From assembly GCA_020627925.1 (NCBI GenBank), contig JAHDFY010000004.1:1-64000 (forward strand): a stretch of 64,000 bases of DNA, given 5' to 3'. The stretch comes from a bacterium (GTDB lineage: Bacteria; Patescibacteriota; Gracilibacteria; Absconditabacterales; Absconditicoccaceae). Of the stretch, positions 3,270 to 34,156 are shown one piece after another. The position numbers and the translations under genes are program-made. Each line of letters starts with the position of its first letter. Within the stretch, counting starts at the first letter, position 1. The notes beneath the pieces are model-generated. The model was not told the DNA's origin, ran no database searches, and saw nothing but the letters and a program-made list of their open reading frames with translations.

Positions 3270-5027
3270 ATGGCTATTGCTATTAATCATATTCCTCATA
3301 CTCCGGGAGTGTATCTCTTCAAAAACTGAAGAGGTACTATTTTGTATATAGGAAAAGCAAAAGATTTAAAAAAAAGGGTGAATCAATATTTTGCACCATG
3401 ATCTGTCCGAAAACAAGACATGATCAATAAAGCAAAACATATTGATTTTATAGAAGTAACTAATGAATCTGAAGCCCTCTACTTGGAAGATAATTTAATC
3501 AAAAAGCACAAACCAGAATACAATAGATTACTCAAAGCTGACAACAGTTATGCCTACATAAAAATAACCAACGAAGAATTCCCCCAAGTATATATTTCCA
3601 GAGATAGAAAAAACGACAAAGCTACCTACATTGGTCCAAAACACAACACTAAAGTACTCAGAAAATTATTGCAATACCTGAGGCAAGTGTACAAGTTTAG
3701 AACAGAACCTAAAGGAAAATTTAACAAAGGAGAGGTATCTTCTGATTTCTACTTTTGACTGGATGCATGACGAAGTATCTATGCAAAACTTAATGACAAA
3801 AACGCAGCAAAATATATTGCCAAAGGAAAAGCTGCATGACTCGCCATGGACAAAAGCTATCAAGAATACAAAACAGAATACAAAAAAATAATGAAACAAC
3901 TCATTAGTTTTTTTAATGGAAACATAAGGAGCATTACCAAAGACATAGAAAAAAAATTACAAGAATGTATTGCCAATCAACATTTTGAATATGCAGCAAC
4001 CCTGAGGGACATATACCTTCACTTAGAACAATTAACAGAAAGACAGCACGTTGTACTCAATCCATCACTAACGGGAAAAATTGTTCGGCTTACCACAATA
4101 AACCAACACCATGTTTTGATCATGGTTCATATTTTTGAATGAAAAATGATCGATATTGTAAGGGAAAAATATCTTGTCAATGATCGAAGTTACAATCAAA
4201 TTATAAGTGCTTGTGAAAATGATTTTGGAACAATGGATATTTTTGAATACCACAATGAACAGTTCTGAAAAATTGAAAAAAATTATCTTTTGGAAAAAAA
4301 ACACCATCATACATTTCTCCTTGTTTCTCAAACAATGAAGAGAATAAAAAAAGATGAGCGATCAGCAATTTATGAATTAATGGAGAAATTTATCGACTCA
4401 TATCTTGCTTCTGATTCCTTTCGTGAACATTCATTGCTTAATGAACTATTACAAAACCTTGAAAAAAAATATAAGCTGACACAATTCCCGTATCGTATTG
4501 AATGTGTCGATATATCACACCTTTCTGGTGGTCGAATTAGTTGATGATTAGCTACATTTATCGGATGAATACCATTCAAAAAATGATACCGCCGCTACAA
4601 AATAGAATCAGTAAAAGAATCAACTGGTTACAACAATGATTACCAAGCACTCAAAGAAATTATAATAAGAAGATTTTTAACATGATCCAAAACAGCTTCC
4701 TCTGAATTACCTGAATTATTTATCATTGACGGAGGAAAAGGGCAACTGTGAATAATAAAGCAACTTATAAAAAAATACCCAGAGCTAAAGGGTATTATGC
4801 CCAAAGTACAATTTGTTTCATTGGGTAAGGGAGAAGCAAGGCATAGCAAAGGAAAAACAGCAGGAGCACAAGAAGTACTCTACTCGCTAGACAAGCACAA
4901 CAATATCATGGAGAAAAAACTTGACTACGATCAAACAGATAAAATTCTTATCAAAGTAAGAGATGAGGCTCACCGTTTTGCCAATAATTATAGAAAAAAG
5001 CGTATGAGCATGGAATGGAGAGAATAA
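3270..5027 (+). CDS. uvrC: Excinuclease ABC subunit C (lacks HhH tail)
   Basis: UvrC makes both incisions in nucleotide excision repair. Visible domains: GIY-YIG nuclease at the start (HTPGVYLFKN then ILYIGKAKDLKKRV), a UVR motif for UvrB contact near residues 220-250 (CIANQHFEYAATLRD), and the RNase-H-like second nuclease (RIECVDISHLSGG, GYRRYKI, FIIDGGKGQL). It ends at RDEAHRFANNYRKKRMSMEWRE, directly after the RNase-H domain, so the C-terminal helix-hairpin-helix pair of typical UvrC (about 600-620 aa) is missing at 585 aa. About a dozen TGA codons fall at glycines. The start lies 9 bp after the grpE stop, so the two are probably co-transcribed. Confidence 0.95.
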
Positions 5028-30800: not shown

Positions 30801-31123
30801 AAAAGTTTTACAACATCGGGGATAAAATCAAAGCATACGCAATAGATTTCAAAGAAGTACATGGAGAAAAAAAGGTTGTTTGGAGTCAACAAAAACCGTC
30901 ATGATCGACGAAACCAACATGATGAACAACAACAAAAGATGGGAGAAAGCTATGACCAGTCGTGAGAGAAACTAGAAAATCCGCAACAATGTCATGAGCA
31001 AAACTAATCGAGCCTAAAATACAAAAAAAACCAATACAAACAACGATACCAAGCCAGCATACTCCTCCACCAGCAACAACACCTCACAACAAACACCATC
31101 CAACTCCGCACAGTCACCACTAA
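27899..31123 (+). CDS. VirD4/TraG-like ATPase with C-terminal S1 domain, 1074 aa
   Basis: A large P-loop ATPase of the type IV coupling/DNA-pump class. Walker A is IIGKTGTGKSTFL (about residue 350), followed by GLLDPHGELVDTILEHIP, and Walker B MYIDEFQNFATDSF (about 595), then LIVANQYTSQL, the pattern of TraG/TraD-type proteins. The first 340 residues are an unrecognised domain with a Lys/Asp-rich insert. Residues about 918-1000 form an S1 RNA-binding fold (YEGYVKLVYNYGIFMTVKG, EGLLHKNLI, YNIGDKIKAYAIDF). The tail is Pro/Thr/His-rich and ends PTPHSHH. The ATPase core has only one TGA, the C-terminal third has many. No other type IV secretion genes lie nearby. Confidence 0.82.
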
Positions 31124-31151
31124 AAAACAGTTGCATAAAGCAATTGTTTTT
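31124..31151 (+). terminator. Terminator after the large ATPase gene
   Basis: Arms AAAACAGTTGC / GCAATTGTTTT (31124-31134, 31140-31150, one G-U), loop ATAAA, eight-T run. It overlaps the -35 box of the next promoter. Confidence 0.8.
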
Positions 31152-31159
31152 TTTATAAT
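31131..31159 (+). promoter_or_regulatory. Promoter of the leader-metG transcript
   Basis: TTGCAT (31131-31136), exact 17-nt spacer, TATAAT (31154-31159). The start of transcription would fall near 31166, 24 nt before the leader ATG. A second possible -10 (TATACT, 31172-31177) is also present. Confidence 0.6.
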
Positions 31160-31189
31160 GTGATATAGATTTATACTCAATGACAGAAA

Positions 31190-31249
31190 ATGAGCATCAG
31201 TTATAACGCGATGATGATGAACATGATGATGCCCGCCATTCGTAGGTAA
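31190..31249 (+). CDS. Methionine-rich leader peptide, 19 aa
   Basis: ATG 31190 to TAA 31249 encodes MSISYNAMMMNMMMPAIRR. Six of seven successive codons (31211-31231) are ATG. The ORF lies between a promoter and a strong terminator, upstream of an unknown gene and metG. This is the layout of amino-acid leader peptides such as HisL or ThrL, where the ribosome stalls when the cognate charged tRNA is scarce. Here the sensed amino acid would be methionine. No Shine-Dalgarno is seen, as elsewhere in this genome. Confidence 0.6.
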   Translation: MSISYNAMMMNMMMPAIRR

Positions 31250-31270
31250 GTATTTTCTGTATAAACAAAG

Positions 31271-31312
31271 AGAAAATCTATCTGCGAAATTTCGCGGGTA
31301 GATTTCTTTTTT
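31271..31312 (+). terminator. Leader terminator upstream of metG operon
   Basis: GAAAATCTATCTGCGAAA pairs with TTTCGCGGGTAGATTTC (one bulged A, G-U pairs), followed by TTTTTT. It lies 22 nt past the leader peptide stop and 45 nt before the next gene. Confidence 0.8.
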
Positions 31313-31356
31313 ACACAAAAAATTTTGCAGTACATTTATTTTGCTTACTAAAAATA

Positions 31357-32484
31357 ATGATTACTTATTATCATATAAATGATGTCATTGCCACCAATGA
31401 CACAACAACCCAAAGACTAGAATTACAGTACAAGCTACTTTCTCATTACTTTGGTGTTAATAATTACCAAATAATTTTTGAATGATCAGATTTTGGTAAC
31501 TCAGCTCAAACAGGACAACAATGCGCAACACTTATCAAAACACTTACACAAGACAAACAAAAAGATCATCACACGGTTATTTGTATCAACAACGCATCAA
31601 GAGCAAAGCACAAAGATTCAGGAAACGCAAAAGGAAGTGGTTGCCTCCGAGCAAAAATCAAAGACACCAATGTACATGTGGTTGGAGTAGATCATGAAGT
31701 GTTTGTTGAATTTAGTTGACAAATAGAATCATTAGCAATCGTTGAAGATTTACACATCAATGGTGTTACAAAACATGACATTTCACAAGGATCGCAATTT
31801 AGATCACTAGAATTTTGGCCAAGTGTACAAGTATTTTTGCAAACAAAAAGCAAACTTCCTACGATACTAAGTTCAGGAAAAATAGAACACGACACAAAAA
31901 ACGCATACATTACCATACAAGCGATTACGACAGAACAACTTCCTCACTCACCTCAAGTTAGTCAATCACCACGACAAGAACAAGTAATCAATCATCACTA
32001 CGTACCAAACACACATAATTTACAACGTCATCAACTCATTGGACAAGCAAAAAAGTTTCGAAAAGACCGAAATCTCGTAGAGGATCAAAATTTCTTGGAT
32101 AGTTTATCTATCGACGTTGCACACTTCAATGAAGCAAAAAACTCGCTCTCACCTAATCAGCTCATCATCATAGATAGAGATAAATTTAATAACACCAAGT
32201 GTCTTTCTGCTCACCACGACGGTATTCATGGACTAAGCAAGTCACTTGCAGCATGATTAGGAGAAAAAATCAGTATTAGTCGAGAAAATGGAAATGATGA
32301 ATGATTTATTGTACAGTCAATTAGTGACAAAACAGGGCAAAAGTGTATTCGAAATGGTTCAAGTAGATGACCCAACAACGAACAACTTGTTGAATTAAAT
32401 TATTCGGTAGATGAGACAAAAAAAACTCGAGAAACAATTGCACAACTACCACTTGGAACCATACTTACACTTGCGTCAGCATAA
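31357..32484 (+). CDS. Unknown protein upstream of metG, 375 aa
   Basis: Not firmly recognised. The N-terminal half has IIFEGSDFGNSAQTG, THTVICINNAS-like and TNVHVVGVDHEVFVEF; the middle has FRSLEFWPSVQVFL; the C-terminal half (about residues 225-375) ends in a Gly-rich, beta-like region. The first half faintly recalls SAM-cleaving DUF62 proteins (SDFG, VHVVGVD), which would suit its place between a methionine leader and metG, but the similarity is weak and I would not name it. No signal or membrane segment. Several CGA (Trp) codons. 58 bp before metG. Confidence 0.6.

Positions 32485-32536: not shown

Positions 32537-34156
<1,620 letters not shown>

Follow-up and report, generated by a model that had tools for sequence, protein, structure and literature searches.

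A putative methionine-codon transcription attenuator upstream of metG in a TGA-recoded bacterium, and related codon-run leaders across its class

Most descriptions of ribosome-mediated attenuation come from Proteobacteria, Actinobacteria and some Firmicutes (PMC1262725, PMC2965389, PMC8079986). Attenuators with cognate codons are known before the synthetase genes pheST (pheM) of gamma-proteobacteria and trpS and leuS of Streptomyces (PMC1262725), and His leader peptides precede hisS paralogs in bacilli (PMC2965389). For Streptomyces lividans, a weak Met-containing leader, metL, has been suggested ahead of metNIQ and a leader thrL ahead of thrS (PMC8079986). An earlier note on the DNA studied here had stated that a Met-codon leader before a MetRS gene is not described. 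In view of the S. lividans metL this is too strong (PMC8079986), but the open-access literature searched yielded no long poly-Met leader accompanied by a complete antiterminator, and no report of ribosome-mediated attenuation in candidate-phyla bacteria.

In this study, we analyzed a stretch of 64,000 nucleotides (the window) from a genome in which TGA codes for Gly, as frames stay open under code 25. A region in the middle of the window is very probably a genuine ribosome-mediated attenuator of transcription, responding to the level of charged methionyl-tRNA. Its features are listed in Table 1. The 19-codon leader ORF with its two runs of three ATG codons around one AAC is present as the earlier note had described it, and carries a codon run for one amino acid; TGA is absent from its codons. 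In a scan of 4282 short intergenic ORFs over 1.24 Mb of this genome, this Met run has the lowest p value (1.7e-9) of all that contain a residue run and have a terminator behind them. No Shine-Dalgarno sequence is visible for the leader ORF, and the starts of metG and of the first gene likewise have none. The gene order given previously, an uncharacterised gene and then metG behind the leader, was confirmed by the Pfam match of the MetRS. metG is the second gene after the leader and is separated from the first gene by 58 nt. For this first gene no Pfam or NCBIfam family and no significant PHROG match was obtained, and the single-sequence structure prediction of its product was uninformative (pLDDT 31). 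A scan of genome contigs with metG yielded one distant locus and was also uninformative.

Table 1. Positions of the putative attenuator, its flanking genes and comparable leaders (positions in the window unless a locus is given).
Feature	Position or locus	Strand	Basis or remark
Upstream gene, TraG/HerA-like	ORF end 31123		
Intrinsic terminator of the upstream gene	31122..31152	+	A-tract stem, loop ATAAA, U-tract
Candidate -10 TATAAT of the earlier note	31154..31159	+	sequence; absent from promoter-scan list
TATACTCAATGACAG box, second -10 candidate and putative start region of the transcript	31172..31186	+	common to Asn/asnS leader
Region 1	31183..31191	+	possible pairing with 31252-31260 when the RNA is not translated
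Leader ORF MSISYNAMMMNMMMPAIRR and stop, 19 codons	31190..31249	+	translation
Control codons ATGx3-AAC-ATGx3	31211..31231	+	sequence
Region 2, antiterminator 5' arm	31239..31258	+	31239-31248 in ORF end and stop, 31252-31258 just 3'
Region 3, common to antiterminator and terminator 5' arm	31271..31288	+	
Intrinsic terminator (regions 3:4) and U-tract	31274..31312	+	terminator scan, 14 pairs
First downstream gene, 375 aa (code 25)	31357..32484	+	function not assigned
metG, methionyl-tRNA synthetase (code 25)	32543..34156	+	PF09334 E 1e-83
Asn leader, same genome	L080, ORF start near 3720 (G000:C5, ~43720)	-	TATACTCAATGAYAG box as in Met leader
Thr leaders in relatives	L133, L139, L141, L146, L152, L157		
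Asn-run leader 5' of asnS	L182 (G027)		MYYCSCNNNTANNQAL
Asn-run leader 5' of asnS	L189 (G011)		ends in INNNNKNNTSAW
Uncharacterised family behind Met leaders	L361-L364, L367, L372, L379, L381		

An intrinsic terminator separates the leader ORF from the structural genes. Its full stem (31274-31305, including an A/U extension) was calculated at -22.7 kcal/mol, in line with the strong terminator that had been noted 3' of the ORF. The nine complementary pairs noted between 31183-31191 and 31252-31260 also exist; their effect would vary with the transcript start, and without a ribosome P(3:4) is 0.93 for an RNA starting at 31178 and 0.27 for one starting at 31184. The second noted pairing, of segment 2 with the terminator foot, exists as well but is the weaker half of the antiterminator (-3.5 kcal/mol). 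As sole antiterminator the pairing 31252-31258 : 31271-31277 was rejected, for it leaves the terminator core (-12.9 kcal/mol) intact. On forcing this short pairing in folding, a longer antiterminator came to light. Here UUCGUAGGUA (31239-31248; ATT CGT AGG TAA, the final codons of the ORF with its stop) forms an uninterrupted helix with UAUCUGCGAA (31279-31288), the heart of the terminator 5' arm. Both helices, 31239-31248 : 31279-31288 and 31252-31258 : 31271-31277, together give -16.7 kcal/mol. Antiterminator and terminator are mutually exclusive through the common stretch 31271-31288. Sequence and folding establish both the codon run and these alternative pairings. In addition, GCCCGC (from 31231) can pair with the terminator 3' arm. 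The antiterminator gain in the early transcript, which comes from pairing the 5' arm with upstream sequence, is the highest among 85 terminators in ~455 kb of this genome, but 35 of 2000 dinucleotide shuffles equalled it (p only 0.018).

The influence of ribosome position was modelled by masking a ribosome footprint on the early transcript ending at 31291 and computing pairing probabilities. As long as the ribosome is no further than the fifth or sixth Met codon, P(2:3) is 0.90-0.93 (0.89-0.93 if the codons before the run are included). It falls to 0.76-0.41 at the last Met codons and is 0 from one or two codons past the run. A ribosome at the stop gives P(3:4) of 0.987. The predicted response is that of a classical attenuator, and it supports the logic of the earlier note, i.e., read-through with a ribosome stalled at Met (P(2:3) ~0.92) and termination with a ribosome at the stop (P(3:4) 0.987). 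The overlap of the antiterminator arm with the end of the ORF makes this logic fit the sequence better than the earlier note could see. In the finished transcript at equilibrium the terminator wins for the later Met codons and the antiterminator masking logic holds for the early Met codons only. Therefore, the switch would have to be kinetic, with the antiterminator forming first. According to the proposed mechanism, a ribosome would follow the RNA polymerase during transcription of the leader ORF. With ample Met-tRNA it would get to the stop (31247) and cover region 2, upon which the terminator 3:4 would form and transcription would end near 31312. With scarce Met-tRNA the ribosome would stall on the Met run and leave region 2 free to pair with region 3 before region 4 exists, and the polymerase would continue into the first gene and metG. 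Stalling, kinetics, termination in vivo and co-transcription with metG are what we infer in this scheme.

In the promoter proposed in the earlier note, TTGCAT-N17-TATAAT, the -10 element TATAAT is present but is omitted by the promoter scan, and the -35 element matches the consensus in only three of six positions and lies inside the terminator hairpin of the TraG/HerA-like gene (fold of 31115-31165, -13.9 kcal/mol). A second -10 candidate, TATACT (31172-31177), belongs to the 15-mer TATACTCAATGAYAG. Since this 15-mer is present exactly twice in the 1.27 Mb genome, at the Met leader and at the leader of asnS, TATACT may be the -10 actually used.

In ~455 kb of this genome, ORFs with a codon run, an antiterminator and a terminator were also searched for. 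An Asn-run leader, MSPRNALMYSMINNNSNNNLHM (NNNSNNN), lies directly 5' of asnS and is followed by a terminator of -24 kcal/mol; its Asn codons pair with region 2, which in turn can pair with the terminator arm. Upstream of thrS a Thr-run leader, MCNMRALNTVTTKTSTTPA (TVTTKTSTT), and a terminator are found (L172/L147, G000:C9). The genes for AspRS, LysRS, SerRS, ProRS, Ile/ValRS, LeuRS and CysRS of this genome have no cognate run 5' of them. Apart from these leaders, a short ORF with a non-cognate Ile/Tyr run, MIIYSIIIYLDVAIVYYY, and a terminator of -20.9 kcal/mol were observed 5' of aspS (L222/L123, G000:C3), and a possible His leader, a short ORF ending in LVHHHSHSLHCFSCR with a terminator, precedes an uncharacterised gene (L239 at 4814, G000:C5 ~244814).

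Comparison with relatives shows the same kind of element. Thr-run leaders with antiterminator and terminator are located 5' of thrS in six related genomes, TGA-recoded or not. When run ORF and terminator were scored at 202 synthetase loci, cognate leaders were present at 6/30 ThrRS loci (this genome included; relative G066, with a weaker terminator, uncounted), 3/32 AsnRS loci and 1/50 MetRS loci, the last being the window itself. HisRS and PheRS loci gave no cognate leader in this matrix, and elsewhere in it there were scattered singletons. Eleven leaders have a common geometry, with region 2 starting at -11 to +7 and region 3 at 23-38 nt from the stop end. A search with the leader DNA in 98 relatives, a set of genomes that includes no congener, returned chance-level matches only. 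Conservation in relatives had been named beforehand as a check on the attenuator. It is seen for the kind of element, which is kept class-wide before Met genes and, in its Thr and Asn versions, before the cognate synthetases, but not for the exact leader, and the 1.5-2.5 kb upstream of the 49 other metG genes showed no Met run. A few hundred bases 5' of metG, non-cognate short ORFs with terminators were observed in two genomes, a Thr-run MSITTTTTQHYNR (L047 at 1208, G008) and an Asn-run MIIGCFWCYFNNNLKNN (L253 at 2043, G058); both possibly arose by chance.

Met leaders were traced across the class with the pattern ATGATGATGNNNATGATGATG (341 class genomes searched, 50 matched, many matches coding or low-complexity). 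At 15/30 automatically fetched MMMxMMM places a terminator lies 6-32 nt behind the stop, compared with 57/900 random stops (Fisher p 3e-10). A terminator is present at 22 of 23 places hand-chosen for their Met run and their resemblance to a leader, and at most of these the terminator 5' arm pairs with sequence a short way behind the Met run. In total, ~20 further MMMxMMM leaders with terminators were found; as they were picked by their Met run, Met conservation among them is not independent evidence. The genes behind them belong in part to Met metabolism, as does metG, the second gene, in the window. Met leaders precede HTS/metA in G173 (PF04204, 1.8e-60), homocysteine S-methyltransferase in G284 and G312 (PF02574, 7.8e-35 and 7.2e-34) and SAM hydroxide adenosyltransferase in G310 (PF01887, SAM_HAT, 1.1e-9), and three more genes in this position resemble homocysteine S-methyltransferase. 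Comparison between genomes establishes this class-wide pattern, and the putative Met attenuator very probably belongs to a set of codon-run leaders spread through the class.

These results bear on whether the Met run might be a chance ATG repeat and the hairpin a constitutive double terminator or part of a small RNA gene. ATG/GAT triplet repeats are seen in these genomes, both in coding and in low-complexity DNA, the region is intergenic with terminators on either side, and it matches no Rfam family. However, the reach of the antiterminator into the end of the ORF, the presence of cognate Asn and Thr leaders in the same genome, the Met leaders 5' of Met genes class-wide and the terminator enrichment at MMMxMMM places all speak for an attenuator and make a chance repeat highly improbable.

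An uncharacterised family of 310-370 aa with the motifs N-A-P-R, Q-F-R-S and D-x-x-G-N recurs directly behind Met leaders. Compared with this family, the window's first gene scored 12.6 bits in a profile search and E 2e-4 in hhalign (probability 46.5%), which is suggestive of a remote similarity. One may speculate that the first gene codes for a SAM-hydrolase that releases Met from SAM, a hypothesis that is suggestive only; a PDB match, 2zbu, common to family A1 and the SAM_HAT protein was not significant (E 1.2 and 0.73).

The attenuator could also be real and yet govern only the first gene, perhaps a Met or SAM enzyme, while metG has a separate promoter. The gap before metG contains a TATACA-like element, which would fit this, as would the position of MMMxMMM leaders elsewhere, mostly 5' of other genes, and the lack of a Met run in 1.5-2.5 kb upstream of the 49 other metG genes. 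On the other hand, the terminator scan found no terminator in the gap, and the Asn and Thr leaders of the same genome sit directly 5' of their cognate synthetases. Moreover, G077, a separate lineage whose MetRS is 38% identical to that of the window, has a Met leader followed by an uncharacterised gene, a 146-aa gene and metG, which is near the gene order of the window. We consider control of the first gene alone unlikely, and leader control of metG itself likely. The leader-metG switch probably raises the supply of methionyl-tRNA synthetase when charged Met tRNA runs low.

Met-responsive control of Met genes is the job of Met T-boxes and SAM riboswitches too, which sense tRNA or SAM directly and without translation. 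In other bacteria a terminator-based switch 5' of metG could be such an RNA. Here, no Rfam T-box or SAM family was detected in 31000-31500, either at the gathering cut-off or among weak matches, and conserved codon runs correspond to the downstream function, which implies translation. A translation-free sensor of Met-tRNA or SAM is therefore extremely improbable. None of the Rfam leader families (Leu, His, Thr, Trp, Phe) reached its gathering score; Leu_leader alone appeared, with 21.4 bits against a cut-off of 50.

On balance, it seems probable that codon-run attenuators form a hitherto unrecognised family, which serves the class as a general sensor of tRNA charging. It would comprise a Met economy regulon (metA, homocysteine methyltransferase, SAM hydrolase-like genes that possibly free Met from SAM, and metG) and Thr/thrS and Asn/asnS versions, including lineages with TGA=Gly. 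If so, bacteria with small genomes and a probable dependence on a host can sense amino-acid supply via leader translation, and Met is a sensed nutrient in them. The leaders would then offer a sequence signature for finding further such switches and candidate functions for uncharacterised genes behind Met leaders.

Like the attenuators of pheST and of trpS and leuS, the locus combines a leader peptide with cognate codons, an antiterminator and a terminator 5' of an aminoacyl-tRNA synthetase gene (PMC1262725). It differs from them in its Met codons and its recoded, reduced-genome host, in a region 2 that begins within the ORF end and in the extra gene between leader and metG. With metL and thrL of S. 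lividans it has in common that short ORFs containing Met or Thr are put forward as attenuators, with thrS behind one of them (PMC8079986). However, metL (MSTTSDRTPATEATTTPGARCMCRRMCAF) and thrL contain few Met or Thr codons and have no clear intrinsic terminator (PMC8079986), whereas a six-Met run, a strong terminator and a defined antiterminator are present here. The hisS leaders of bacilli are similar in that a codon-run leader controls a synthetase gene outside Proteobacteria, theirs being for histidine and in Firmicutes (PMC2965389).
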